NCBI GenBank assembly: GCA_963978895.1
Contig: OZ022242.1
Span: 24,469,663 to 24,533,662 of the forward strand
Reading direction: 5' to 3'
Length of the DNA stretch: 64,000 nucleotides
Source: Erpobdella octoculata
Taxonomy: Eukaryota; Annelida; Clitellata; Hirudinida; Erpobdellidae
The first letter of the stretch is position 1; the number at the start of each line of letters is the position of its first letter. Below the pieces are notes generated by a model. The model saw only the letters and a list, made by a program, of their open reading frames with translations, did not search any database and was not told the origin of the DNA. Position numbers and translations under genes: made by a program. This document shows, piece after piece, positions 1,303-47,641 of the stretch.

Positions 1303-2051
1303 GACACGACAACAGGTACTTGTAAGTGAGATTGGCCTATAGTTAGAAGGGCAGCTTGTCGGGCCCTTTTTATGAATTGAAGAAATGCAAGCAATCTTTC
1401 AATTTGTTGGCAACCTGCGCATCTTGAGAGACACATCAAAAATATGACAAAGTGGGGCTACTAAAGCGTGGGCGCAACGTTTTAGGATGATGTTTGGTAT
1501 TTCATCAGGACTAGAGGAGCATGAACTTTTGAGACCTTTTAGGACTGAAAGGACAACATCGGGAGTAAAAGAGATCTTTTCCAGTAGTTCAGAGGTTTGG
1601 TGTTAAAAATTAGGATCTTTACCATCATCTACTGTAAACACACTAGCAAAGTAATCGTTGAAAATGTTGGCTATCTCTGATGGATTCGACGTAAGATTAT
1701 TTTTGCCGGTTGCAATGCTATTTATGGAGGAGTGCGAAGATAGTTTTTTGTTTACGTATCTGTAGAAATTTCCAAGATTTTTTGTAGAGATCAAATTTTG
1801 TTCTGTGTAAGACTGGGTCCTTTTTACAGCTGCCGCACATAATTTTGAGAATTTTTTGTATCTGTTTTTGTCTGTTCTTGGGTAAATCGATATTTCTTCC
1901 AAAAATGTAGTTTAGCCTTATACAGTTGGCGAAGAGCCTTTGATGTTCTGCCTAGTAATTTCGGAGAGTTGTGTGCCGCATAGTGGACAGGGACAAAAGT
2001 TTCTATAGCAATATTTAGATAATGATTGAAAACATTCCAGCAGCTCTCCAC
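1303..2051 (-). pseudogene. LINE ORF2 linker and RT fingers (broken)
   Basis: Continues the CR1-like ORF2. It reads ETFVPVHYA, then YRYVNKKL, then FNDYFASVF (typical of the region between endonuclease and RT), followed at about 1310-1600 by SSSPDEIPN and NYRPISLTSTCC, the first RT motifs. At least three frames are used and one in-frame stop follows RRLPTN, so it is a relic. Confidence 0.82.
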
Positions 2052-2082
2052 GTCAAAGCATTACTGAAAGAGAATATCCCAT

Positions 2083-2830
2083 TTAATATTGAGTAGAAAA
2101 GCGTTTATTGAAACAGTAGAAACTATGTTGTTTTTTCTCATCAAAAGTTAGGATTGAGTCATTTATTTCAAACGTAATCAGATTGTGGTCGCTAATAGCA
2201 ATTGGACATGAGATATCTATCCTTGCAAGAAACCCTGAGTCATTTGAGAAAATCAAATCCAGAATATTACTGCCACGGGTACGTTGCTGCACAAATTGAT
2301 GAAGCCCAAGATCGTTATAAAAGTTCATGAAGGATGTGTTGATTTCTCCATTGGGATGAGAGTGTTGTAGCCAATTTATACCGGGCAGATTAAAATCGCC
2401 CATCAAACAAAATGTGTGTTTGGTTGAACAGATATTTTTTAAGCACTCTATACTGTCAATAGCATACTTGTGAGCCTCAGTGCCAAACCCCCGCTACGAT
2501 AATAGGCTATAAATCTGCAGTGTGTAGTATGTAGACGTATGTCTACACACACAACCTCAATATGCCAAAAATGAACTGGAATTTCCACAAACTTAAAGGT
2601 TACATCTTTCTAATTATGAAAGCTAAGCCGACACCTCTAGTTTCTCTGTCGCAGCGACATGCTGAAAAACCTCTAGGAATAAATAAGCTGTTAGGATCTT
2701 CTTTTGTAAGCCACGTCTTGGTAACACAAAATAGTTCAGGCTTGTAATCTTCTAAAAACAAAGTAACTTCTTCAATTTTATTTCTGAGACTTCTTAAATT
2801 GGTTAAAGCTATGCGGCATCCCGGTTTAGT
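2083..2830 (-). pseudogene. LINE ORF2 AP-endonuclease domain (broken)
   Basis: Encodes the EEP/APE-type endonuclease that nicks target DNA for target-primed reverse transcription. The N-terminal part (about 2640-2823) reads NLRSLRNKI then LFCVTKTWL, where the catalytic Glu (T-E-T-W-L) is replaced by Lys. The C-terminal part (2083-2406) keeps GDFN, LDLIFSN and SDH. Several frameshifts separate these pieces. It directly precedes the linker and RT of the same element. Confidence 0.85.
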
Positions 2831-2885
2831 TTCGAAATGGCTGACTCATGCTTTTTTTCTAGATTTTTTTATTACTTTATACACA

Positions 2886-3075
2886 TATAAGGAAACATAG
2901 CGTTGATATGTTTTTACGAGCCACATATATCAGAAACTTGGATGGCTTACAATCCACCACGAAATAACGCAAATATAAATGTCTCAACCTCAGACTCGAA
3001 CCCACGACGGTCGGATCGGCAACACCGCCTCGCATCATGCCAACTACTTTACCATCTGCGCCACTTCCACGGCCA
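2886..3075 (-). mobile_element. tRNA-derived SINE, copy 1
   Basis: On the minus strand an A box (TGGCGCAGATGG, 3052-3063) is followed by a B box (GGGTTCGAGTC, 2993-3003) at normal tRNA-like spacing, so the head is an RNA polymerase III promoter of tRNA origin. The body continues to an ATAAGG motif near 2886. A near-identical body is repeated at 3241-3397, which supports a SINE rather than a lone tRNA gene. Confidence 0.75.
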
Positions 3076-3167
3076 AAAACAGTGGTTGTTAAGCGCTTTT
3101 GTTGGGGTATGTTGAACACAACACTCGACTATGAATGGGTACGAATCAATGCTCGATAGTATATATA

Positions 3168-3397
3168 TATAAGTTGGACGGCTTACATTCCATCACTAGC
3201 TAATTTAATAGCTATCGAAGATATATGTTTTGTAATATATATTATAAGGAAACATAGCGTTGATATGTTTTTACGAGCCACATATATCAGAAACTTGGAT
3301 GTCTTACATTCCACCACGAAATAACGCAAATATAAATGTCTCAACCTCAGACTCGAACCCACGACTGTCGGATCGGCAACACCCGCCTCGCATCATG
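3168..3397 (-). mobile_element. tRNA-derived SINE, second copy and fragment
   Basis: Positions 3241-3397 repeat the SINE body and B box (3350-3360) almost exactly. The tRNA head is cut before the A box, where (TA)n begins at 3399. A short diverged piece of the body (GGCTTACATTCC) also occurs at 3178-3200. Confidence 0.7.
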
Positions 3398-3398
3398 G

Positions 3399-3700
<302 letters not shown>

Positions 3701-3743
3701 GGCTTATAGATCTATTTCGGCAAATTTTGCCATCTTCAGAGCC
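3701..3743 (-). ncRNA. hammerhead-like ribozyme motif of PLE
   Basis: Read on the minus strand: stem I GGCT/AGCC, core CTGAAGA, one extra T, stem II GGCAA/TTGCC, GAA, then the palindrome ATAGATCTAT as stem III and A at the cleavage position. All three helices can form. Hammerheads in PLE ends are an established finding; activity is not known here because of the extra U before stem II and the loopless stem III. Confidence 0.7.
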
Positions 3744-3821
3744 GTTTAACTTTTTTTTAAAATAAAATGCAGTGACTAAATGGTAAAAGGTACAACTAAT
3801 TGAAAGGAATTAAAATACAAT

Positions 3822-3960
3822 GTGTTTGATAATAAATTATTTTTAAACCGATTTAGACTATTGGAAAAAATTAAAAATAAAATCGATTCAGCCAAATGTG
3901 CCAATTTTTTCAATCGAGTTTGCTTAAAAGAACATATAGCGCCGAAGTATTCAAAAAAAA
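3822..3960 (+). mobile_element. PLE terminal segment, inverted copy
   Basis: Plus-strand copy of the segment at 3573-3700, encoding [15 protein letters not shown] before an A-rich stretch and a short (TA)n at 3975-4000. It is inverted relative to its neighbour. Here the conserved protein start runs past the usual TA junction, showing the original continuation LKExxxPKY. Confidence 0.75.
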
Positions 3961-4002
3961 AAAATAAATAAAAAATATATATATATATATATATATATAT
4001 GC

Positions 4003-4261
4003 TTCTAGTTAATTTGTAAAATATTTTAAGTGGTGTAGTTAAACCATTTTTTTATTATAATTGTGAGTGAATCATTTTTAACTGAGCGATATTGTAGGAT
4101 AAACAAGCTGTTTCTCGTAGCGGTTTCGTTGCTAATTTTCTGTTAATAACCGGATTTTATTTGCTGGTTTCTAGAGTATTTTTACCAGACTTATATTTTG
4201 GTTTGTTTGAGAGACTTTTGTTTGTTGAGGTGGCGTTTTTGCTGGATCTTTCGGTTTTACA
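4003..4261 (+). other. leader upstream of ORF1-like gene
   Basis: No gene, LTR or promoter motif recognised. The sequence is T-rich and could be the 5' UTR of the LINE-type ORF1 that starts at 4262. Confidence 0.4.
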
Positions 4262-4969
4262 ATGGCTAAATCCATTTCTCTCGAAAACTTGGAATCAATA
4301 CTAACAAAAATTACGGATAGATTCAACGAGCATATGACAAGAGTGATGGATAATATGAATAAAAACTTTGAATTGCTCCTGAACAACGTTGTCCAGATGC
4401 TAAAAGATTCCTCAAAGGACACTTCTTCTAGAGTCGAACTACTCACCTCTAGAGTAGATATCATTGAAAAAAGACTGGAAAAGCTAACAAACCAGCTCCA
4501 ACAGGGGACTGGCCCGCAGATGAACAACTCGGCCCTACTGGAAACGGTTTCTCGAACGTTTTGGTTGCAGGAGCAAGAAAAAGAAGAAAGACAGAAAAGA
4601 GCCAGCAATGTAATTATTTCAGGATTAGAGGTTGATGCCGCAGTTCCGGACACTTCATTTGTTGCCGATTTTTTTGAAAAAAGTTTGACAGTGAAACCAA
4701 GGATCTTGAAAACCCGGCGATTGAGTAAAGACCCAAGCAGACCACTTCCACTAATCTGTGTTACTCTTTCGAGCGCGGAGGCTGTGGAGGACTTGTTACA
4801 GTCTTCGATGCTTCTTCGGTCGTCTAAAGATGAAAGAACAAAACGCGTTTTTATTAATCGCGATCTCACGAAGCAACAGGCTCATCAAAACTATCTCAGA
4901 AGATGCGAAAGACGTGAACGTATGAAAAATACCGGCCAGAGCCAGATTTCGTCACCAACAGAGAAATAA
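4262..4969 (+). CDS. LINE-type ORF1 protein
   Basis: A 235-residue protein. Residues about 20-85 are predicted coiled coil (heptad-rich, MDNMNKNFELL to RVDIIEKRLEKL), followed by a basic stretch and an RRM-like core with KRASNVIISGLE, KPRILKTRRL, RPLPLICVTL, VFINRDLT and YLRRCERRER. This order is usual for LINE ORF1 nucleic-acid chaperones that coat element RNA. The start follows a clean leader. No ORF2 follows; instead an LTR-like end appears at 5325. Whether the reading frame is used is unknown. Confidence 0.75.
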   Translation: MAKSISLENLESILTKITDRFNEHMTRVMDNMNKNFELLLNNVVQMLKDSSKDTSSRVELLTSRVDIIEKRLEKLTNQLQQGTGPQMNNSALLETVSRTFWLQEQEKEERQKRASNVIISGLEVDAAVPDTSFVADFFEKSLTVKPRILKTRRLSKDPSRPLPLICVTLSSAEAVEDLLQSSMLLRSSKDERTKRVFINRDLTKQQAHQNYLRRCERRERMKNTGQSQISSPTEK

Positions 4970-5336
4970 TCGGACGAATTATACAAAAAAGTCTGCTAAC
5001 TCAAAATTATATCAAAGCCAGAAAAGGAACACGAGTGCTACTCCAAAGCTAGGAAATAAAGTTGAGGCAAACGCTAAAGCTTTGAATCAGCCAAAAAAAG
5101 ACCAAGGCTCAGTCTCCTGCCAAAAAACAAAATGGGGAAAGCAATTAAAAAAATAGTTTGAAATCATCAATTTTCGGAGATACTCGCCCAGTTGACACAT
5201 CTCGCAGAGATCAAGAGATTGAAATGAAGCTTAAAGAAAATTCAAGCTATCAAGGAATTGCTTGTAAACCGAAATTCATGAGCAGTCTTAAAACACCAAG
5301 GGTTTTCTTCGGAAAAGGAGGGATATGTAAGATGTA
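4970..5336 (+). pseudogene. C-terminal tail shared by ORF1 and the Gypsy family
   Basis: Beyond the ORF1 stop, in shifted frames, the DNA encodes NRTNYTKKSANSKLYQ, KLGNKVEA, LNQPKKDQGS and SIFGDTRPVDTSRR, ending GKGGICKM-stop. The Gypsy copies G1 (32.5-32.8 kb) and G2 (45.8-46.1 kb) encode NYRKTSANSDLYQ, LNPPKK and IFGDARP(V/I)DTTRR. Similarity starts around the ORF1 stop (T-E-(R)-N-N-R against T-Q-R-N-D-R). A frameshift splits this copy. Confidence 0.7.
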
Positions 5337-5527
5337 GTTGTCACATCTTACGTATATCTGTATAAATAGCTTATTGTATTGTCTCTTATTATGTTAATTA
5401 GTGTATTATGTATGTGCGTCGCTTGTATATGTATTCTGATTGGTCTGTGTATATATACGTGTATCCTGATTGTTTTTTGTATATATATATATATATATAC
5501 CTTTGTTCTAATTGGACGGCGTATATC

Positions 5528-5571
<44 letters not shown>
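5325..5571 (+). other. LTR-like end with TATA motif and (TA)n
   Basis: GGAGGGATA (polypurine-like) is followed by TGTAAGATG...CATCTTACG, matching the start of the G1/G2 Gypsy LTRs (TGTAAGATG...CATCTTACG read on their minus strand). A TATAAATAG lies at about 5363. The segment ends in (TA)n at 5528-5569, into which the next LTR element has inserted. Confidence 0.6.
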
Positions 5572-5572
<1 letters not shown>

Positions 5573-5760
5573 GTAAAATCGCTGTTTTTACAATAGGTTT
5601 TCCCATTGATAGACGTTAAAGGACTTCGAATAACTATTATGGACATTATTATTAAACCAGAAGGTATAACTAGCCGTAACAAAGCTTCATTTATTATTTT
5701 CCAATAAAACATCAAAACCATTCTATTGAGCCCGGTATACGATTTGGTGATATCGTAACA
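5572..5760 (+). repeat. 5' LTR
   Basis: Begins TGTAAAATCG and ends ATATCGTAACA. It contains CAATAAAA near the 3' part, a possible polyadenylation signal. It is identical to 7357-7545 except AAACC against AATCC. Confidence 0.93.
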
Positions 5761-5779
5761 TTGGTGTCAGAAGTGGGAT
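5761..5779 (+). promoter_or_regulatory. primer-binding site
   Basis: TTGGTGTCAGAAGTGGGAT directly follows the 5' LTR. TGG at the start pairs with the CCA end of a tRNA primer, and this string is the usual style of Gypsy/BEL primer sites. The tRNA species was not determined. Confidence 0.8.
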
Positions 5780-5785
5780 ACAAGA

Positions 5786-7309
5786 ATGGTTTTGAAATCA
5801 TTGGATGAGCTTTGGGCGAGTGAAATGAAAGACGAGCTGGAGAAACGTGGCCTGAGCGATACAGGTAAAAAGGACGAACTTATGGAACGCCTCTTAGCCG
5901 CGTTAGTAAATGAGGGCTATGGGCCTGACGACGACGAATATCTATTCGACATTGACGAGGAAGCTGTGGTCAAGCGAAGGAAATTAAAAAACAAATTGCT
6001 GGAGGAAGAAAGACAACGAGCGAAAGAAAACATGGCAGCACAGAAGAAGACAGGAGAAGGAATGATTCTTGGCCACGGAAACAAAGTAGCAGCAGCCGGT
6101 ACAACTGTTGAGAGTTTGGTCGCAGGGTTGGCTGAGGCAGTGGTGGACACGGTTCTGGACCAGCGGGCTGCTGGTGATGTGGGTTGCTGCGGCGAAACCC
6201 AATTTGAACTGGAGTCCACCAGCTGTGTCTCAGAGCATGTGACGGATGACGGCCGTACAGACTGCACAAGTCAGGTGGGTCATGATGATGAGCCTGTCAA
6301 AGACGGTCATGATAAGGAACCTTGCAAAGATGCTCAAGATGAACCATGCAAAGATGGTGACAGTGATACAGTCGGTTTGGACGTCAAAAACCAAACTAAA
6401 GAAGATGAGAAGAATGTTGAAAACGAAATGCAAAACGATGAGGATGAAAGTGACGATGATGATTATAATAATGGCAATAACAACTATGGCTTTCACCCAT
6501 ACAGCGACGGTTCTGAAACGGAAGCCTCCATAACAGACGACGGCACCGAATATTCAGGGTCAGATTTTAGTGAAGAATCTGACTCGGATGAAGCAACCGA
6601 GGATTTAGAAACGGACGAAACTCCAATGGAAAAATACGTCAAAGTTAACTTGACAAAAAAAGAAGACACTGATTTGAGAGACGATGGCGATAATTTGAAG
6701 AAAGATCCGCTGGACGATACGAAAGTTGACACCGACGAAAGAGCCGAGTTGGAATGTGAAAAGAAAATGTTCGATTGTAGCTTGGAAGAAAACAAACATG
6801 ATGACGATGAACTTCTCCAAAACAACAATAGCAATGCAGCAAGCAAAAACTCTGGAAAAAATGAGACAAGAACAGAGAATGGTACCGAGGGTTTTAAATC
6901 AGATGAATCCACAGAAGATTCTAGATCAGATAGACTAAGAGTCATTGTAAAATCAAATAACAGTTTGATGAAGGGATTTATTGGATTTATGGAACGACGT
7001 GTTCTCGAAAAACCTTTTGAAGAGTTTCTTGAGAAAGATCTAAAAGATGTGAAGGAAGAAGAAAAAACTGACAATTCCGATAAACCGTGCAAAGATGTTC
7101 AGGAAGAGGCATGCAAAAAAGGCTGTGATGAACCGTGCAAAAATGGCGACGATGAGCCAAAGAAAGACTCTGTTGATGAGCCAAAGAAGGACTGGAAGAA
7201 ACTGTGTCAAACGGTCAAGAGACTTGACCATGTTGTTTGCGAATTGCGGTCAAAGCCACGAGTAAAGATCAAGGTATTTTGGTGTTCGTGGCCGAGTCGC
7301 ATTTCTTAA
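5786..7309 (+). CDS. SAP-domain acidic repeat protein of LTR element
   Basis: A 507-residue protein. Residues about 5-40 (LWASEMKDELEKRGL, then GKKDELMERLL) match the SAP helix-extension-helix fold that binds DNA or RNA and is seen at the N terminus of some retrotransposon Gag proteins. Residues 60-85 are basic and helical. The rest is very acidic and low-complexity, with repeats of the type EPCKDG/DEPCKDA in two clusters (about 172-197 and 433-460) and Asp/Glu runs. No capsid fold, CCHC knuckle or enzyme motif is visible. The end (KVFWCSWPSRIS) is near the polypurine tract. The start is the first ATG after the primer-binding site. The role may be a Gag substitute or chromatin tether; this is inference. 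Confidence 0.8.
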   Translation: MVLKSLDELWASEMKDELEKRGLSDTGKKDELMERLLAALVNEGYGPDDDEYLFDIDEEAVVKRRKLKNKLLEEERQRAKENMAAQKKTGEGMILGHGNKVAAAGTTVESLVAGLAEAVVDTVLDQRAAGDVGCCGETQFELESTSCVSEHVTDDGRTDCTSQVGHDDEPVKDGHDKEPCKDAQDEPCKDGDSDTVGLDVKNQTKEDEKNVENEMQNDEDESDDDDYNNGNNNYGFHPYSDGSETEASITDDGTEYSGSDFSEESDSDEATEDLETDETPMEKYVKVNLTKKEDTDLRDDGDNLKKDPLDDTKVDTDERAELECEKKMFDCSLEENKHDDDELLQNNNSNAASKNSGKNETRTENGTEGFKSDESTEDSRSDRLRVIVKSNNSLMKGFIGFMERRVLEKPFEEFLEKDLKDVKEEEKTDNSDKPCKDVQEEACKKGCDEPCKNGDDEPKKDSVDEPKKDWKKLCQTVKRLDHVVCELRSKPRVKIKVFWCSWPSRIS

Positions 7310-7340
7310 AAGCGATATGCTGTTCGGGACGAACAGAATT

Positions 7341-7350
7341 AAGAAGGGGG
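7341..7350 (+). promoter_or_regulatory. polypurine tract
   Basis: AAGAAGGGGG lies six bases before the 3' LTR, the expected primer for plus-strand synthesis. Confidence 0.75.
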
Positions 7351-7356
7351 TAATAA

Positions 7357-7811
<455 letters not shown>

Positions 7812-9254: not shown

Positions 9255-9343
9255 GAAATGTGAGTATATGTACCCCCTTGTGCGTGCATAGTTAATTGTC
9301 TAGCAAGTGTTGTGCGAGTATGTCCGATGTAAAACTGTGACAC
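9122..9343 (-). pseudogene. PLE-A GIY-YIG nuclease N-terminal half
   Basis: [21 protein letters not shown] carries the GIY-YIG core of Penelope-like endonucleases (YIGHT, catalytic-type Arg, then His). The preceding Cys-Pro-His-His-His coding lies in the RT frame. A frameshift on each side separates it from the RT and the C-terminal half. Confidence 0.82.
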
Positions 9344-10970
9344 CAGATGGTGATGAGGACAGGAAAACTTGTATACAACTTAGCTCTCCGTATAAGTGTT
9401 TTATCTTGGGCAAGGTTATTAGTGATGACTAAGTCCCTTGATTTTAGATCCTTGAAATAGATATGTAATTTTAGTTTTTGACCTTGATCCATCAGTCGGA
9501 CATTCTTAAAGACGATATTACGAAGTACCTTTTCATCAATACGATAGTTGTCGTGCATCTGAGAATGGTAATAGAGTTGAATCGAATTATCGGATGGATT
9601 GACATGATTTGTAGAGCGTAAAGATTTTTTACTGACAAACTTATCAATAACACTATCAACTAATGTATTGGAGAAGTTATTGTTTACTAGAAGAGACTTA
9701 ATTCTGCCAACTTCAATATGGAAATCTTTTTCATTTTCTGTGATCCGATGTGCTCTTGTTAAAAAGTTCAGAATCACACTAATTTTATATTTCTGAGGGC
9801 AAAAGCCTTGACCATTGAGCGTCTCACCGCCATTTGTTGGCATGTTGTAGACTTGAATAGAGATTTTTTTCTCGGCGTTAGAGACCAATGTGTCAAGGAA
9901 CGGTAGTTGATTTTCGTCACTTTGTAATTCGTAAGTGAACTTAAGGGGTGAAAATTTTTCAAAAGCTTCTTTCAGTTGTGATAATTCATGAGCATCCTTG
10001 CAGAGCACGAATATATCATCAACATATCTTGCATAAAGGACAGGTTTATGGATGATTTCATCGAATATATTGTTTTCGAGGTGGCCCATGTAAAAAGCAG
10101 CGAAGGTGGGACCAAGAGGAGAACCCATCGCCACACCGTCGACTTGAATATATAGTTGACCACTAGGATGTCTGAAGGGAACCTCGGTGGTGCAAAGTAG
10201 AAGAATATCCTTTAATAGATTTTTGTCAAAAACTGGAGGAGCCATAGTGGGATGGTTATAAACGTATTGTAAGATAATGTTTATGGTGTCAGACACTGGA
10301 AGACTGGTGAACAAGCTTTTGACATCAAGCGAAGCCATGATACCAGAGTGTTCAGGCACGGCACGAAGAAGGCTGATGAAGTCAACTGATGATGAAAGAG
10401 AAAATTGAGTGGGGCAATAGGGAGAAATAATCGAATTGATGGATTTTGCTAGCTGGTGAACAGGTGTAGGGCACTGCGAGATGATGGGTCGAAGAGGGTG
10501 TCCAAACTTGTGGATTTTCAAGTTACCGTAAATATATCCTGGATTATAGTCACCTACAACATTTCGAAACTTGTAACTTTTAGCATTTAACTGGTTTATG
10601 ATCGCATTAACTTTCTTTTTCAACATATCGGTTGGGTTAGACGTTAATTTTTTAAACTTTGAGATATCGGCAAGAATATTGTCAAGGTTTTTAATATAGT
10701 CTTCACGGTTTAGCAGCACATAGGTATTAGACTTATCGGCCTTCCGGATGACTATCTTCGAGTTATTCTTTAGAGACTTGGCTGCTAGACATAGATTTTT
10801 TGGTAGATATTTGGACGGAGTGTTTCGGTGAGTAAAACCTTCGGCGTTCATCAGAGCTCGTAACTTTTCGTCAAAATGTAGCCGGCCATTTTTAGCGTGA
10901 TTCATAATGTCGCAGTAGAGTATTTCAAGTTCAGTTTGTTTTATTAATGGATCATAAGTTGACTGGATGT

Positions 10971-10977
<7 letters not shown>
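9292..10977 (-). CDS. PLE-A reverse transcriptase polyprotein
   Basis: About 560 residues after the (Tyr-Ile)n run encoded by (TA)n. Order: [14 protein letters not shown]-terminal domain, [55 protein letters not shown] (motif A), [13 protein letters not shown] (motif B), [11 protein letters not shown] (motif C, both catalytic Asp present), then QLPFLDTLV and [15 protein letters not shown] motifs look intact. The ORF ends by frameshift inside the GIY-YIG region. PLE RT primes at nicks made by the linked endonuclease. Confidence 0.9.

Positions 10978-11045
<68 letters not shown>
10976..11045. repeat. (TA)n microsatellite
   Basis: 70 bp of TA at the 5' edge of PLE-A. Confidence 0.96.
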
Positions 11046-11047
<2 letters not shown>

Positions 11048-11147
11048 AGATCCATTTCCTTTTCTGTAACTTCAGTTTGTATATATGTATATATAGGAAA
11101 CCTTTTCCTATTTTGTATCCTCAGTTCACTAAAAGAGGTAGATAGTC

Positions 11148-11306
11148 TCGAACTCCGCCTCGCTAATTGCGAGCCAGTCCCAATCCTGGAGAAAGGAGGA
11201 GGGAAAAGTAAAAAGGATCAAATTCTGATCCACGACAGGAAGTACATAAGTGCTCCCTACATACAGCCATTAGTCTTAAAACACCTGGTGTAAAGGACTA
11301 TAAACT

Positions 11307-32326: not shown

Positions 32327-33484
32327 TATCCCCCGTCTTCGAAAAAAGGAACGCGTCAGCGTTTCTGATTACATCGTCACTCTCTTTACGACTAAGAAAG
32401 TCAGCACCGATGTTTTCCTTGCCTTTGATGTGGTTTACTTTAAACTTATTCTCAATCTCTGTTTCTCTGCGTGTTGTGTCAACAGGGCGGGCGTCTCCGA
32501 AGATTACCGAATTCAACTTTCCATCTTTCCCCACCCCTCCATGTTGGCCTCTAGGCAGAAGATTGAGCCTTGGTCTTTTTTTGGCGGATTCAAAGCTTGA
32601 ACTTTTGCCTCAAATTTATTTCCCAACTTTGAAGTGGCACACGTGTTTCTTATCTTGTTCTGATACAGATCCGAGTTAGCCGACGTTTTTCTATAATTTG
32701 CCCGATCGTAGTTAAAAGCGGATTTCTGTGGTTTCTGACCAAAGCGTTTTCCTGCAGCCATTGCATCCAAACCTCTTACTCCTTCAAAATTTCCCAGCAC
32801 GAGATCGCAGAGTATGTTTTTCATGCACACAATCTCTCTGGTTCCTCTGAACCAGTCTGTTTTGATATTTACCACTGCTGTTGGAGCTACCCGAACTGTG
32901 CCGTCGATCAAAACACAGGGTCTTGTTCTTCCGGTCATCTGACGCGGGTGCACTAATGATTCCTTTACCATTATGGCAGTACAGCCATTGTCCCTCAAAA
33001 CTTTTACCGGTTTTCTGTTCACAAACCCTCTGGTTAAATTAAACTTTTCTCCTGAGTGAAAACAACCATCCGCTATTACCGGTGAAAAGCAGCCACATTT
33101 TAATTGGAGCTCATTCAGTTTACCTTCCTTCACCATGACCGCGCATGCATTCACTACTCCAGAATCTTTGCATGGTGGTGTCAAGTTGGCCTCTCTACGC
33201 GCTTGGCACATGACTGGAGTTGCTTGAGTGCCTTGACTGTAGTCTCTCGCCAAATGTCCAGCTTGATGACAATCCTTTGCCATATGGCCCAGCTTATTGC
33301 AATTGTAACAGTGTGGTCCAACCATTCCCGAGTCAATGTCTGGTTGACTACGATTTCCGCTAATCCTGCTTATGTTTTCGACTTTTGCCAAGCTTTTGAC
33401 TGGGTGAGCTTGATTGTACTTGTTGACCCAGCAACTTAACTCATTGACGTCACCGCTTTCTTTCTCCAACAAATATTCAGCCAT
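32327..33484 (-). pseudogene. G1 Gag zinc knuckle, protease and chimeric tail
   Basis: From 33484: continuation of Gag (EYLLEKESGDVNEL), CCHC knuckle CYNCNKLGHMAKDC, then aspartic-protease-like VLRDNGCTAIMVKESLV with GLDAMAAG. Active site is DNG, not DTG/DSG. Next comes the segment shared with the LINE-type ORF1 region at 4.97-5.3 kb (TSANSDLYQ, LNPPKKDQGS, IFGDARPVDTTRR), and in another frame HIKGKENIGADFLSR, the end of Gypsy RNase H. Palm RT and integrase are missing. Confidence 0.82.
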
Positions 33485-33517
33485 TCCCGACGGACACTTT
33501 CCAAAGAACTGCTCTTT

Positions 33518-34312
33518 TTAAAACAAAAACAATAAGTTTTTTGTACCCGCGAGATCCACCCAGCGCCTGAGGTAACTATCTAGTCGCACTAGATACTGTT
33601 CCCAAGTCTCTTCTGGTTCAAGCTTTGACTCTCGAAACTTTATGCGGTAGGCTTCTGTCGACTTCCCAAAACGACGAAGGAATGCCACTTTTACCGACCC
33701 GTAATCCTGCATCTGACTATCGCTGAGTTGGCCAAACACTTCCAATGTCTTCGCACTCAGCAGAGAACCCAGAAGCATTCCCCAACCCTTTTTTGTGTGA
33801 TCATTTGCCGTGGCCAATGCCTCAAAACGGAGCAGAAAAGCGTCCACGTCGTCACCTTCCGAGAACTTTGGATATGGAATCTTTGTTACCTCTACCGTCG
33901 CCTTTGGCTCTTTTTTTGTTAGGGCCTCCAATTCCAGCTTCTTCAATTCTAATCCATGTTGACGTTGAGCTATTTTATCTTTCCGATCTGGTTGCGCTAT
34001 TTTATCTTCACGTTCTTGTTGCGCTATTTTATCTTCACGTTCACGTTCTTGTTGAGCTATTTTATCTTCACGTTCACGTTCTTGTTGAGCTATTTTATCT
34101 TCACGTTCATGTTCTTGTTGAGCTATTTTATCTTCACGTTCACGTTCTTGTTGAGCTATTTTATCTTCCCGCTCCTGTTGAGCCTTTTTTTCTTCCCGTT
34201 CCTCCATTCTCTTAACCCTTTTTTCATCCTTTAACTCTTTGACATAATTCCTTAAATCCACTCCGGAATAGCCTAGAGCTTGTCCCATCGCAATGAATTT
34301 CTCGTCAGACAT
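33518..34312 (-). CDS. G1 Gag (SCAN-like), N-terminal part
   Basis: Starts MSDEKFIAMGQALGYSG, then a charged repeat region with about six copies of an 11-residue REREDKIAQQE-type unit, and a capsid-like part YPKFSEGDDVDAFLLRFE, WEQYLVRLDSYLRRW. This layout is known for SCAN-like Gag of Gypsy elements; Gag packages element RNA. A premature stop after NLLFLF (LILKKQ in G2) separates it from the knuckle. Confidence 0.85.
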   Translation of the reverse strand: MSDEKFIAMGQALGYSGVDLRNYVKELKDEKRVKRMEEREEKKAQQEREDKIAQQEREREDKIAQQEHEREDKIAQQEREREDKIAQQEREREDKIAQQEREDKIAQPDRKDKIAQRQHGLELKKLELEALTKKEPKATVEVTKIPYPKFSEGDDVDAFLLRFEALATANDHTKKGWGMLLGSLLSAKTLEVFGQLSDSQMQDYGSVKVAFLRRFGKSTEAYRIKFRESKLEPEETWEQYLVRLDSYLRRWVDLAGTKNLLFLF

Positions 34313-34390
34313 CTTTCACAAAAGAAAAAAAAAATCGGTCACTTGTGACCAAACAGCTTCAGAAAATATATTTACGGATGAAAATGCGTA

Positions 34391-34409: not shown

Positions 34410-34477
34410 TGTTAACGTAGAGGAATATGCTTTCTAGCAATTCGTAACGTTAAAGTCGAAGTTATTTATAACACAAT

Positions 34478-34778
34478 TGTCAGGGGTCGCTCTACCCGAC
34501 CTCCTGACAAGTGTACCTTGCACCAGTCGACCTGTCTAGACAGGAACCTAGACATTGGCAGACGTTGTTTTCTTGTTGTTTGTTTACGCGTTCCTGAGGC
34601 TATATATATAGCGTTTTGAAGCCCGCCAGTACAGCTAGCTATTTAATATCAGGCAAAGTCCTGCGTGTTTTGTATTTGATTTTTGTTATTAACCGCGCTT
34701 TAATAAAGTTTTTGTTGTCGTTCTGAGTTGTCTTTTCTTCCTGGTGTTCACGTCATTCCAGCAGGGAAGACTGTGACA
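34478..34778 (+). repeat. 5' LTR of myosin-bearing element
   Basis: TGTCAGGGGTCGC ... GACTGTGACA. Contains a TATATATATAG promoter-like motif near 34601 and AATAAAG near 34701. Confidence 0.93.
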
Positions 34779-35031: not shown

Positions 35032-36096
35032 ATGGATAGTAAGTCGTCCGGTGCTGAGGGTTGTGAAAACCCAGCGCAATTACCTGGAGGGAATGTGTCT
35101 CCAGAAAATTAGGAGGATGCGGGGAACGTTAGGAGGGAAGACACTAGTGGGTTTGGCAAAGATCCGACGTGGGGAGATCGACGAGGAGAACGTCATGAAA
35201 AACAAAAGCGTAGAGGTATGTGGGATGGTGAAGAAAGGAGAAAAGAGTTGGAAATAGAAAGGCAATTGGAAAATGAATCGATAGATAGAGCATTGCGAGA
35301 GAGAGAGTTGCAATTAAAAGAGATGACGTTAGAAGAAGAACGAGAAAATAGAAAGCTAAGATGGCTAGAATTGGAAGAAACAAGACGATGGAGAATAGAG
35401 GAACGCAAAAGAATGATAGCGCGAGAAAATTTTGAAGCTTCGGTTGAAAGTCGGGCTAGTCGGTGTATATCAAATATTAGACCGTTGGTAGGTGAATTTC
35501 CTTCAAATATTCAGGAAATTCCTGGTTTTTTTGAATTATTAGAAAAACAATTTATTATTAATAATGTCAATAATGACATCAAAGCCAGGATTTTACAATC
35601 ATGTTTGACTTGTAAGGCACGTAGTTTAATAACCCGTCTTTTTCCTACTCAATTAGAAAATTATGATAATGTTAAAACGACTCTTTTAGCCGAACACAGA
35701 GTCAGTCCTGCCTATTTAAAACAATATTTTCAATCTCTAACTAAAAAACCGGACCAAACGTTCTCTAGTTTGGCTTCCGAACTACATAATGCATTTTCAT
35801 ACTATGTTAAAAGTAGGGGGATTGATCGGAATTATGATCAGCTAATAAGTTTGCTGTGCGCCGACCGGCTCAAGGAGTTGTTACCGGTTGACTGTCGAAA
35901 TTTCGTTTTGACCCAAGAACAAAATAGATGGTTGTCTTATGAAGAACTATCTCAAGTGGCCGATAATTATGCGGCTGCTCATGTTCTATACCAGTCATCG
36001 TCTTTTCGCCAAGTTGTCAAATCAGATAGTTTAATTAACCGTCAGGTCGATTTAAGATCTGGCCGTTGTTTTGGCTGTAATTCGCCGGCCATGTAA
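35032..36096 (+). pseudogene. SCAN-like Gag of myosin-bearing element
   Basis: ATG at 35032 opens a frame with one in-frame TAG (35110-35112). The part from 35218 reads a charged coiled coil (ERELQLKEMTLEEE) then EFPSNIQEIPGFFELLEKQF, LFPTQLENYDNVKTTLLAEH, SAYLKQYF-like and LICADRLKEL-like segments (as LLCADRLKELLP), and ends in a CCHC knuckle CFGCNSP... A single missing base at about 36089 breaks the knuckle, moving HVRKNCPKR into the next frame. Confidence 0.88.
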
Positions 36097-36611
36097 GAAA
36101 AAACTGTCCGAAACGAGAGGTTTCGCAGGTCGCACCATCGGCTTATATCAATTGTTGTAGTATTGGTAACGAACCTTCTCATCCATCGTGTCCGGGAAAT
36201 GATGTACTTCATAATCCTATGAAATTTTATGATAGGTCATTTATGAAAATAAAAAACAGCAATCTCCCACCTGTTGCTGCCTTAATAGATAGTGGAGCGG
36301 AAATCTGTTGTATAAGGGCAGATTTGGTTAGATCCTTAAAATTGGGTTTGCCGAGAAAAATTAAGTTATGTGGGTTTAGTGGCCACCCACAGCTGGTGGA
36401 TGTTGTGCAAGCACCTGTTAATTTAGGTGCAGTAGATCCTAATACTACCAATATAGCTCCTGAATTTTTAGAATGGTTTGCAGTTGTTCCCCACTTACAC
36501 GAAGAAGCAATCATTACCCCTAGGGTAGTAGAATTAATACAGACTATTGCCTTACATAGCCTGCCTACCCCAACTTTGGCGTCGGATATAAAAAAAAAAT
36601 TCTCAACCTGA
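36097..36611 (+). pseudogene. aspartic protease of myosin-bearing element
   Basis: After the frameshift: HVRKNCPKREVS completes the knuckle, then VAALIDSGAEICCIRADLV with the catalytic DSG, LCGFSGHPQLVDV, and EEAIITPRVVELIQ. A retroviral-type protease that would cut the polyprotein. It ends at TGA (36609-36611) just after a run of ten A (36590-36599) that is also the joint to the myosin frame. Confidence 0.85.
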
Positions 36612-37276
36612 CTCGACAAGTTGATGGGCTGATCGAAGATTTGACCGAATCAAACAGAGCGAGAAGTCAACTGCAGAGAGAATTTGATGACCTGGTTTTT
36701 TCTAAAGATGACGTCGAAAAGAATGTTCATGAATTAGAAAAAGACAAGAAAGCTCTTGAAACTCAGGTGGAAGCCAAGAAGCAGATGATCGAAGAGCTCG
36801 AAAAGGAAGTTCAAGGTACCGAAGATGCCAAGTTGAGATTGGAAGTTGAAAGATCAGTTGATGAGAGAGACGCAGTCAAGAGAGGAAATGGACAAAAAAG
36901 GTAGAAAGGGTTTTCTTAAAAAGATAAGAGACGTGGAAGCTAAACTTGAAGAAGAAAGGAGACAAAAGCAGCTTGCAACGAATGCCCGGGAGAAGGTTGA
37001 AGGTAACTTCAAAGCTATGGAGGAACAACTTGCTGATACTCTGAAAGGCAAAGATGAAGCTGTGAAGCAATTCAAACGTTACCAGGTCTAGATCAAAGAA
37101 TTCATGCACGAGATCGAATTTATCAATGTAACCAAACAAGAGATGTCAAATGCCAGTAAAGAGAGTGACAAAAGATACAAGCAGCTTGAAGCTGAACTTC
37201 TCCAACTTCAGGAAGATCTGGCAGCTTCAGAGAGAGCCAGAAAAACTCTACATGAAGACTACCAACAAGATACCTA
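36587..37276 (+). pseudogene. captured non-muscle myosin II heavy-chain rod fragment
   Basis: Encodes about 225 residues of coiled-coil rod in the order found in animal non-muscle myosin II: LNLTRQV, SKDDVEKNVHELEKDKKALE, GTEDAKLRLEVE, after a frameshift at about 36850 KIRDVEAKLEEERRQKQLA, GKDEAVKQFKRYQ, a TAG stop (37088-37090), then KEFMHEIE and YKQLEAELLQLQEDLAASERA. No intron is seen, so it probably came from mRNA. Myosin rods dimerise and form filaments; this piece lacks motor and tail. The frameshifts and stop make it a pseudogene now. It sits in the position of pol. Confidence 0.9.
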
Positions 37277-37490
37277 TGAGCGTCATTATAACACCCGTAA
37301 GAAATATAATTCCTGGTTGCTTCTTTTCATGGTGACCAGTTGGTGGTCTCTCTCTCTTATCTCACGGAACCGCCGATTTTCTCTCCCGGATAGGGGAGTA
37401 GTCTCTCAACATGGAGAGCTAGACGACATTTTTTTACTTGTCGTAATTATGTTTATTATTATGTTTATTATTTACTGTTATAAATTTTGA
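37277..37490 (+). CDS. short ORF continuing past the myosin joint, with hydrophobic C terminus
   Basis: The last myosin frame (from 37104) runs on as DTYERHYNTRKKYNSW, WWSLSLISRNRRF, LPDRGVVSQHGELDD, and a hydrophobic end IFLLVVIMFIIMFIIYCYKF that could span a membrane. Similarity to myosin stops near HEDYQQ. Origin unknown: remnant of the element's own 3' gene or other captured sequence. Confidence 0.4.
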
Positions 37491-38029
37491 AATGTTGTTT
37501 TCTAGCATAAGCCCAGAGGCACATTGTACTAGTTGTATTTCTAGTTGCATAGGTTTTCTCTTTTGTTGTCTTAGTTGCAGATCGTTGTGATATTCTATAA
37601 TTAATGATATTGTTGAGGTAGTTGAACTTCTTCGAAATGACGTGATGATGATTCCTTCGTTAATACAATTCAGACCGGTATGGGATTAAACTTGGATGGG
37701 TCGTGCTTGTTATATGGGTGGTTTTACGGGTGGGAGTAAAAGTTATTTTCAGGAAGGACATCTCCAGTTTAAAGTCGACCTTGAAGCCCTGGTAGACGCG
37801 ATACATCGACGAACGAACACCCATTCTTCATCCAGATTATCTACAAAGTTCTACTCCGATTCCACCCACTCCTCATCTTCCTCGTCGTCCTCTTCGATGT
37901 CCCCGACCTGGAAGCTTTGGTAGGCGCAATACATCGACGAACGAACACCCATTCTTCATCCAGTACTGTGAAAGATAACATTTAAGATATTGAAACACTG
38001 TTCAACATCTTCGTTTTGAGTGGGAGTTA
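37491..38029 (+). other. 3' region with 60-bp direct repeat and polypurine-like end
   Basis: No protein family recognised (a 75-codon ORF at 37696-37923 is Ser-rich). ATACATCGACGAACGAACAC plus neighbouring bases occurs at about 37801 and 37930 within two ~60-bp direct repeats. GAGTGGGAGT just before 38030 may be the polypurine tract. Confidence 0.5.
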
Positions 38030-38330
38030 TGTCAGGGGTCGCTCTACCGGACCTCCTGACAAGTGTACCTTGCACCCGTCGACCTGTCTAGACAGGAACC
38101 TTGAGATTGGCAGACGTTGTTTTCTTGTTTTTTGTTTACGCGTTCCTGAGGCTATATATATAGCGTTTTGAAGCCCGCCAGTACAGCTAGCTATTTAATA
38201 TCAGGCGAAGTCCTGCGTGTTTTGTATTTGATTTTTGTTATTAACTGCGCTTTAATAAAGTTTTTGTTGTCGTTCTGAGTTGTCTTTTCTTCCTGGTGTT
38301 CACGTCATTCCAGCAGGGAAGACTGTGACA
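38030..38330 (+). repeat. 3' LTR of myosin-bearing element
   Basis: TGTCAGGGGTCGC ... GACTGTGACA, 301 bp, about seven differences from the 5' LTR, followed by TSD ACAAT. Confidence 0.93.
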
Positions 38331-38554
38331 ACAATATTTCTCGAGTTTATTTTAACTTTATTATTCTTCGTTGAATATAATCTTTTACTTGACTCAAAAC
38401 TGAATTATCTCACTTTGTAGAATTTCGCACGGTTCTAACAAATCTTTTGATAATTCCAATTTCTCTACAAAACCACCTTACTTTTTTAATAAAGACCCCA
38501 AAAAAGAAAAAGACCAATAACAATTATATATATATACATATATATATATATACA

Positions 38555-39304
<750 letters not shown>

Positions 39305-45674: not shown

Positions 45675-46709
45675 TTACATATCTTCCCTCTTCGAAAAAA
45701 AGAACGCGTCAGCGTTTCTGATTACATCGTCACTCTCTTTACGATTAAGAAAGTTAGCACCGATGTTTTCCTTGCCTTTGATGTAGTTTACTTTAAACCT
45801 ATTCTCAATTTCTATCTCTCTGCGTGTTGTGTCAATAGGGCGGGCGTCTCCGAAGATTGCCGAATTCAACTTTTCATCTTTCCCCACCCCTCCATGTTGG
45901 CCTCTAGGCAGAAGATTGAGCCTTGGTCTTTTTTTTGGCGGATTCAAAGCTTGAACTTTTGCCTCAACTTTATTTTCCAACTTTTTGGCAGACGTGTTTC
46001 TTTCCTTGCTTTGATACAGATCCGAGTTAGCCGACGTTTTTCTATAATTTACCCGATCATTTCTCTGTGTGCTGTCGTAGTTAGGAGCGGGTTTCTGTGG
46101 TTTCCGACCAAAGCGTTTTCCTGCAGCCATTGCATCCAAACCTCTTACTCCTTCAACATTTCCCAGCACAAGATCGCAAAGTAGGTTTTTCATGCACACA
46201 ACCTCTCTGGTTCCTCTGAACCAGTCTGTTTTGATATTTACCACTGCTGTTGGAGCTACCCAAACTGTTCCGTCGATCAAAACACAGGGTTTTGTTCTTC
46301 CGGTCATCTGACGCGGATGCACTAATGATTCCTTTACCATTATGGCAGTACAGCCATTGTCCCTCAAAACTGTTACCGACTTTCTGTTCACAAACCCTCT
46401 GGTTAATTTAAACTTTTCTCCTGAGTGAAAACAACCATCCGCTATTACCGGTAAAAAGCAGCCACATTTTAATTGGACCTCATTCATTTTACCTTCCATC
46501 ACCATGACCGCGCATGCATTCACTACTCCAGAACCTTTGCATGGTGGCCTCTCTACGCGCTTGGCACATGACTGGAGTTGCTTGAGTGCCTTGCCTGCAG
46601 TCCCTCGCCAAATGTCCAGCTTGATGACAATCCTTTGCCATATGGCCCAGCTTATTGCAATTGTTACACCGTGGTCCAACCATTCCAGAGTCAATGTCTG
46701 ATTGACCAC
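45675..46709 (-). pseudogene. G2 protease and chimeric tail
   Basis: Frame after the Gag break: VVNACAVMVMEGK, VLRDNGCTAIMVKESLV (DNG as in G1), CDLVLGNVEGVRGLDAMAAG, then DRVNYRKTSANSDLYQ, ALNPPKK, IFGDARPIDTTRR and YIKGKENIGANFLNR (RNase H end). It stops just before the 3' LTR. RT and integrase are absent. Confidence 0.84.
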
Positions 46710-47544
46710 GATTTCCGCTAATCCTGCTTATGTTTTCGACTTTTGCTAATTTTTTCTCTGGGTGGGATTGATTGTACTTGTTGACCCAGCGACTTAACTC
46801 ATTGACGTCACCGCTTTCTTTCTCCAACAAATATTCAGCCATTCCCGACGGACACTTTCCAAAGAACTGCTTTTTTAAAATCAAAAACAATAAGTTTTTT
46901 GTACCCGCGAGATCCACCCAGCGCCTGAGGTAACTATCTAGTCGCACTAGATACTGTTCCCAAGTCTCTTCTGGTTCAAGCTTTGACTTTCGAAACTTTA
47001 TCCGGTAGTCTTCTGCCGATTTCCCAAAACGACGAAGGAGTGCCTCTTTTACCGACCCGTAATCCTGCATCTGACTATCGTTAAGTTGGCCGAACACATC
47101 CAATGTTTTCGCACTAAGCAGAGAACCCAGAAGCATTCCACAACCTTTTTTTGGGTGATCATTTGCCGTGGCCAATGCCTCAAAACGGAGCAGAAAAGCG
47201 TCCACGTCGTCACCTTCCGAGAACTTTGGATATGGATTCTTTGTTACCTCTACCGTCGGCTTTGGCTCTTTTTTTGTTAGGGCTTCCAATTCCAGCTTCT
47301 TCAATTCTAATTCATGTTGACGTTGAGCTATTTTATCTTCACATTCTTGTTGCGCCATTTTATCTTCATGTTCACGTTCTTGTTGAGCTATTGTATCTTC
47401 CCGCTTCTGTTGAGCCTTTTTTTGTTCCCGTTCCTCCATTCTCTTAACCCTTTCTTCATCCTTTAACTCTTTGACGTAATTCCTTAAATCCACTCCGGAA
47501 TAGCCTAGAGCCTGTCCCATCGCAATGAATTTCTCGTCAGACAT
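46489..47544 (-). CDS. G2 Gag (SCAN-like) with zinc knuckle
   Basis: About 335 residues: MSDEKFIAMGQALGYSG, two to three REDxIAQQE-type repeats (six in G1), YPKFSEGDDVDAFLLRFE, WEQYLVRLDSYLRRW, EYLLEKESGDVNEL, and knuckle CNNCNKLGHMAKDC. Unlike G1 it has no stop before the knuckle. It runs out of frame near 46545, where 11 bases present in G1 are missing between two TGG. Confidence 0.86.
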   Translation of the reverse strand: MSDEKFIAMGQALGYSGVDLRNYVKELKDEERVKRMEEREQKKAQQKREDTIAQQEREHEDKMAQQECEDKIAQRQHELELKKLELEALTKKEPKPTVEVTKNPYPKFSEGDDVDAFLLRFEALATANDHPKKGCGMLLGSLLSAKTLDVFGQLNDSQMQDYGSVKEALLRRFGKSAEDYRIKFRKSKLEPEETWEQYLVRLDSYLRRWVDLAGTKNLLFLILKKQFFGKCPSGMAEYLLEKESGDVNELSRWVNKYNQSHPEKKLAKVENISRISGNRGQSDIDSGMVGPRCNNCNKLGHMAKDCHQAGHLARDCRQGTQATPVMCQARREATMQRFWSSECMRGHGDGR

Positions 47545-47641
47545 CTTTCACAAAAGAAAAAAAAATTCGGTCACTTGTGATCAAACAACTTCAGAAAATA
47601 AATTTACGGATGAAAATGCGTAAATACGTCGAGGTCACCAA

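Follow-up and report, generated by a model that had tools for sequence, protein, structure and literature searches.

A myosin rod taken from spliced host mRNA and spread by a Gmr1-like LTR retrotransposon family in Erpobdella octoculata

Acutely transforming retroviruses carry a piece of host mRNA in place of viral genes, often fused to Gag, and are moved by helpers. The LTR retrotransposon family described here appears to be built alike, but its passenger is a structural coiled coil rather than a signalling gene, and the family is known from genome copies alone. In metazoan LTR-mediated retroposition (Tan et al. 2016, as summarised in PMC5408686 and PMC8232201), spliced host mRNA is joined to LTR cDNA by template switching at short similarities, usually with only part of the mRNA copied; a partial, spliced copy is found here too. 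In contrast to the process as these summaries describe it, the chimera here is a mobile family, found at more than 100 places and re-joined to other backbones. The maize element Bs1 is likewise an LTR element, and its hybrid reading frame takes in captured host segments; according to the accounts in PMC13317346 and PMC5408686 it carries pieces of three unrelated plant genes, whereas the animal elements studied here carry one rod region each, and the rods come from paralogs captured by what appear to be two element superfamilies. Also present in multiple copies are the W-linked PxyMasc retrocopies of Plutella, in which partial spliced cDNA lies beside an LTR gag; the 11 copies described in PMC9674220 are clustered, antisense and act via small RNAs, while ours are dispersed, in sense orientation and in frame. 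TART-A of Drosophila is also a retroelement family with a captured piece of a host gene (nxf2), but it is telomeric, and the action proposed in PMC7785250 is through piRNAs rather than protein. Finally, LTR elements of bdelloid rotifers have gained extra open reading frames, as here; the summary record (PMC5408684) does not mention myosin.

We analysed a window of 64,000 nucleotides from E. octoculata contig OZ022242.1, and searched the 386 Mb genome (94 contigs) for relatives of a 3.85 kb LTR element that it contains. The reading we favour, and regard as very probable, is that a Gmr1-like family took a myosin rod from the mRNA of a gene on C1, spread in trans, and re-joined the rod to other backbones. 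As the first-pass annotation had described, the element is bounded by 301-bp LTRs and a perfect ACAAT target-site duplication (TSD) (Table 1); the two LTRs show 7 differences in 301 bp (K2P 0.024). The stretch from the 5′ LTR to the protease is 93% identical in DNA to L046, a myosin-free relative at C3:11.46 Mb with LTRs 98% alike and a GATTT TSD, and window positions 37366-37835 are 97% identical to it. The protease-like frame reads on into the myosin piece, and its Pfam matches (PF13650 and PF13975) are weak, both falling below the curated cut-offs. Read in the myosin frame, positions 37366-37490 would encode a strongly hydrophobic C-terminal tail, which may only mirror T-rich sequence. A long simple repeat array (38525-39300) adjoins the element, and just upstream on the minus strand (32513-34315) lies a second gag-like region, in which a zinc knuckle is accompanied by a coiled-coil-like stretch that is repeated. 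Other frames of the window hold a SAP domain (5759-7309, plus strand), a reverse transcriptase (9292-11217, minus strand) and a zinc knuckle (46489-47547, minus strand). A tRNA search of the window found none, and the open reading frames scanned against Pfam gave no envelope match, a result that does not in itself exclude an envelope.

Table 1. Features of the window element, forms of the family and the second captured rod. Unprefixed coordinates in the position column are window positions; host exon coordinates are those of reversed L042.
Feature	Position or composition	Strand	Basis or remark
5′ target-site duplication ACAAT	34473..34477	.	sequence read
5′ LTR, 301 bp, TGTC...GACA	34478..34778	+	LTR comparison
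gag-like open frame	35113..36096	+	no Pfam match
protease-like open frame, DSGA motif	36081..36611	+	motif by eye
A-rich joint of protease end and myosin; short match between both sources	36587..36600	+	sequence comparison
captured rod, part of host exon D (5752-5882)	36596..36726	+	89% DNA identity
captured rod, host exon E (6511-6723)	36725..36923	+	deletion in window copy
captured rod, host exon F (7080-7246)	36921..37087	+	90% DNA identity
captured rod, part of host exon G (7366-7540)	37084..37258	+	87% DNA identity
~40 bases, neither host exon G nor L046 by comparison	37259..37299	+	overlaps 123-place tag
pol end (final part of RNase H) plus adjoining stretch	37300..37835	+	
3′ LTR, 301 bp	38030..38330	+	LTR comparison
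3′ target-site duplication ACAAT	38331..38335	.	sequence read
long form	LTR, leader, Gag N-terminus, host 4849-7540 (reversed L042), ~40 bases, end of pol, LTR		
window form	gag-pro region reaching L046 position 2253, joined to host 5747-7540		
L047 form (gag-pro-linker::myosin)	to L046 position 2462, then myosin from preceding exon		
second captured rod, L119 and L118	C1:37046000-37047700		inside apparently copia-type element
copies with open captured stretch	L002, L003, L005, L006, L048, L050, L061, L078, L086, L093		

Three frame-broken pieces within 36560-37487 match the Pfam family Myosin_tail_1 above its cut-off and in colinear order (profile positions 636-721, 725-804 and 807-863; E 4.7e-24, 3.9e-16 and 2.6e-12). 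The best PDB chains for 36587-36904 are Myosin-11, Myosin-10 and Myosin-9, at about residues 1476-1576, so that the best matches do lie within the myosins. The rod had been placed directly after the protease at 36587-37276 (about 225 codons); the DNA match to the host gene spans 36596-37258, about 221 codons, with ends that agree to within about 20 bases. Because the PDB list includes Myosin-11, a smooth-muscle gene, the label ‘non-muscle’ is carried instead by the donor gene. Myosin heads occur at many host loci, three of which (C1:7.32, C6:7.02 and C5:16.31 Mb) were judged by eye to be non-muscle myosin II. Over four exons, the C1 gene matches the captured piece at 82.6–90.4% DNA and 78–91% amino acid identity, and by this comparison the donor is the single host gene at C1:7.31-7.33 Mb. 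As donors of the window family, the C5 gene (51–59% amino acid identity) and, judged from a flanking exon, the C6 gene (54% to C1 in the exon just downstream of the captured part) were rejected. The 3′ end of the captured piece falls inside a C1 exon, and the rod has drifted by about 11% from the host gene. A protein search for fused relatives gave at least 12 matches at E≤1e-5, all of them carrying PF01576 (scored among the 7,990 candidates sharing most words), an outcome that still allows for a Gag-fused relative elsewhere, and a plasmid search with the myosin piece gave nothing, as expected. The open-licence literature, searched by myosin, yielded no report of LTR-element myosin capture, which does not show that none has been published.

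Six host introns (GT...AG, 104-630 bases) are missing from the element copies. Across 68 copies, 300 of 305 exon junctions lack a nearby indel (28 copies gave 134 of 135, and a further 40 copies gave 166 of 170). With a single donor gene, absent introns and clean junctions, the host mRNA origin proposed in the first-pass annotation is upheld, and at the level of sequence this establishes that the captured rod derives from spliced host mRNA. Loss of introns alone would fit a processed myosin pseudogene that was made by a LINE and later landed in the element. We regard this as highly improbable, as the captured piece is internal to the mRNA, pol sequence is missing between the joints, the 3′ joint has no poly(A) tail, and one 3′-joint tag recurs at 123 places; the last three features also rule out late insertion of a ready-made pseudogene. 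The rod had further been described as replacing reverse transcriptase (RT), RNase H and integrase. This holds for the integrase, the RT and most of the RNase H, but the end of pol persists downstream of the rod.

The captured rod has spread through the genome. A 690-base query from the window gave at least 42 matches (40 of 152 candidates scored), and a query from upstream exons that have no counterpart in the window copy gave at least 59 (40 of 138 scored). The 39-base tag of the 3′ joint, with up to three mismatches allowed, was found in 58 forward and 65 reverse places, against none for the reversed-tag control; with the exon identities given above, this puts the myosin match well outside what chance would produce. 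As further controls, tropomyosin returned 22 matches, with all 74 candidates scored and no large dispersed family, and the myosin head at least 104 (65 of 207 scored), in exon-sized blocks that are mostly clustered. Movement after capture is borne out by the recurrence of the tag and by separate TSDs at several copies: nine myosin copies were read at both ends, and of these five have a perfect 5-bp TSD (window, L002, L003, L045 and L053), two have one mismatch (L044 and L059) and two have none (L006 and L051). Two copies hold further elements. In L044, a Ty1/copia element with a 1294-codon frame (2283-6164, plus strand) is nested in the protease region, and in L045 a LINE-like insert with endonuclease and RT frames (1735-4783, minus strand) lies within the myosin.

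The 3′ joint is identical across the three forms in which the rod occurs, here called long, window and L047 (Table 1). In the long form, the commonest, the Gag N-terminus is joined to about 350 myosin codons. By start position alone, which is how the 63 usable copies were assigned to forms, 35 begin within the first 110 bases of the captured coding sequence (21 within the first ten bases and 14 later, several of the latter carrying an internal tandem duplication), 15 belong to the L047 type, 10 to the window type, and 3 to other kinds. Internal tandem duplications within the captured myosin are seen in L054, L058, L064 and further places. Over the stretch that both forms share, fixed changes private to the window form number 5 nonsynonymous (N) and 2 synonymous (S), and the long form has none, so that the window form appears to be nested in the long form. 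The first-pass annotation had the rod captured within the element as it stands in the window; this part of its account does not hold, since that form appears to be nested in a Gag::myosin form that is larger and probably older and shares its 3′ joint. The window form joins this older myosin segment to a Gmr1-like backbone, and in the window copy itself the myosin frame is broken. On their joints, the window and L047 forms look like later recombinants rather than the original capture, and L007 seems to have arisen by recombination between two forms. K2P distances between paired LTRs are 0.007–0.027 in six window-form copies and 0.055 and 0.067 in two long-form copies, the last value from 188 bases. 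By eye, short A-rich or purine-rich matches lie at the joints of the window and L047 forms and 2–3 bases of match at the original 5′ joint; these carry no estimate of chance.

The myosin-free relative L046 shows what the backbone may have looked like. Its open reading frames are ordered gag, protease, integrase (H2C2 and rve), RT and RNase H, with the H2C2 and rve frame lying 5′ of the RT-RNase H frame. An integrase upstream of RT is given in PMC8220671 as the defining mark of the Gmr1 group, and by integrase position we call this backbone a Gmr1-like Ty3 element. The L046 pol frame has 212 protein relatives at E≤1e-20, and the best 120 of these 212 are mostly unnamed. The coding region of L046 is split over several open reading frames; we take L046 to represent the likely helper type and make no claim that it is itself active.

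In the proposed sequence of events, a non-autonomous Gmr1-like Ty3 family would have gained about 350 rod codons from the spliced mRNA of the C1 gene. Most likely, RT moved from element RNA onto myosin mRNA packaged alongside it and then returned, and these template switches would have left the Gag N-terminus, the myosin and the end of pol between two LTRs. As the myosin copies share their LTRs, leader and 3′ end with L046, they were probably mobilised in trans by pol-keeping relatives of this kind. At least two later recombinations would then have placed the rod on other backbones, yielding gag-pro::myosin, as in the window form, and gag-pro-linker::myosin, in an order that we infer.

Joints between element and rod keep the reading frame. 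All 15 copies that could be scored keep the gag|myosin joint in frame (two of 17 were too weak to score), although they go back to a single joint and do not count as independent cases. The protease|myosin joint is in frame in L005 (501 codons), the linker|myosin joint in L086 (an open frame of 924 codons), and the pol frame is preserved across the 3′ joint; in L061, Gag::myosin is open for 557 codons from stop to stop. Counting both the window family and the second family described below, element/myosin joints are in frame in six of six cases, an outcome with a probability of about 1 in 729 for joints that form freely and independently. The frame-keeping joints, together with open fusion frames in some copies, make a Gag-type protein with a dimerising coiled-coil rod the likely predicted product. 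A simple count did not support Gag and myosin in one clear heptad register. The captured piece has no motor and presumably lacks the C-terminal assembly domain, so that dimerisation of a Gag-like protein would be its simplest action; the rod might aid assembly, help in packaging together with helper Gag, or tether the protein to cortical actomyosin. Another possible role is conflict through small RNAs, in which captured exons make small RNAs against host myosin or shield the element, as has been proposed for TART-A/nxf2 in Drosophila (PMC7785250) and as in a moth whose PxyMasc is silenced by W-linked retrocopies derived from LTR elements (PMC9674220). Here, however, the rod lies in the same sense orientation as the element, frames are preserved, and the rod has diverged from the host gene as noted above, and we think such a role quite improbable.

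Selection on the rod during its spread was assessed from changes scored against the host coding sequence in 63 copies, with a neutral opportunity of 2.68 N per S. Changes found in at least five copies number 93N, 40S and 2 stops, those in two to four copies 161N, 67S and 12 stops, and single-copy changes 419N, 122S and 42 stops. Stops are depleted in the class of at least five copies (2 of 135, versus 42 of 583 single-copy changes; p=0.009) and not significantly in the class of two to four (p=0.28). The N/S of shared changes falls below that of single-copy changes, not significantly so in the 63 copies (p=0.07 and 0.054), and a signal seen in the first 28 copies (w 0.69 and 0.73 versus 1.26) weakened as copies were added. 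We take these patterns as weak evidence of constraint on the rod during spread. They also accommodate a neutral passenger, captured by accident and spread inside a mobilisable RNA, whose open frames would be those of young copies from recently intact sources. The shared-change N/S is near neutral (w 0.87 and 0.90), 53 of the 63 usable copies are broken by stops or frameshifts, leaving 10 with a captured stretch free of stops and frame-changing indels (Table 1), and functionless passengers of plant LTR elements are well known (PMC13317346). The in-frame joints, the depletion of stops, the repeated re-use of the rod by new backbones and the presence of a sister rod in a second element type all speak against it, and we regard this account as evenly balanced between right and wrong. 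That the rod has a function in the element, rather than being a passenger, we put at somewhat below an even chance.

Changes fixed in at least 90% of copies number 10N and 52S. At fourfold sites the fixed divergence is 0.245 (JC) and the copies' own divergence averages 0.073. Equal clocks would put the stem between capture and the copies' common ancestor at about 0.084, for which about 60 neutral changes would be expected over some 730 nonsynonymous sites. Ten fixed changes against this expectation point either to a rod that was constrained in the element before it spread, or to a diverged donor, that is, another species or a lost paralog or haplotype, such that the mainly synonymous fixed differences arose in a real myosin gene and predate the capture. 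The synonymous excess and nonsynonymous deficit relative to a neutral stem fit such a donor. Yet C1 is clearly the nearest gene in the host genome, and at least five fixed amino-acid differences sit, by eye, where other aligned myosins agree with C1, which fits change inside the element; a diverged donor seems to us unlikely, if still worth considering.

A second capture involves the sister myosin gene on C6. A search with the exons that flank the captured part gave six further dispersed places, and a search with L118 (C1:37.047 Mb) gave seven loci of a second family. L118 is an intronless Myosin_tail_1 match (profile 773-987, E 1.3e-46), and upstream of it, in L119, lie matches to the integrase-end family SH3_retrovirus (PF25597) in two frames (E 7.1e-8 and 7.6e-8) and, by eye, an apparent copia-type RT start. 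Downstream is an RNase H-like end, recognised by eye and weakly matched to the copia frame of L044 (BLAST E 1.2), which we take to resemble copia RNase H; the rod sits where RT and RNase H would be expected. Four exons of the C6 paralog match L118 at 79–91% amino acid identity, which identifies C6 as the donor. Both joints are in frame, though in the one copy read a stop codon separates myosin from the RNase H end. Four loci have the joint of myosin and pol, and a fifth place, on C5, matches it in part; this shared joint suggests that the family has been mobile. Captures were looked for with myosin and tropomyosin only; the genome may hold captures of other genes, and the finding of a parallel capture is subject to this bias. 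Tentatively, and as a minority view among our own readings, we suggest that two unrelated LTR superfamilies independently fused paralogous rods in frame in place of the polymerase, the first re-passing its rod at least twice, as a selectable module for assembly, packaging or actomyosin attachment; a benefit of the rod to the elements is here inferred.

Host-gene capture by LTR elements is a known kind of event, and known cases are mostly single retrocopies or retroviral oncogenes; the scale, the re-use of the rod by other backbones and the parallel capture are unusual here. In this genome, one capture can be traced from its donor through the original fusion to more than 100 places and on to other backbones, and the joints and copies together document, as a natural record, how reverse transcription was accompanied by recombination. 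The rod of a sister myosin in a second element type makes it testable whether captured sequence is useful to the parasite.
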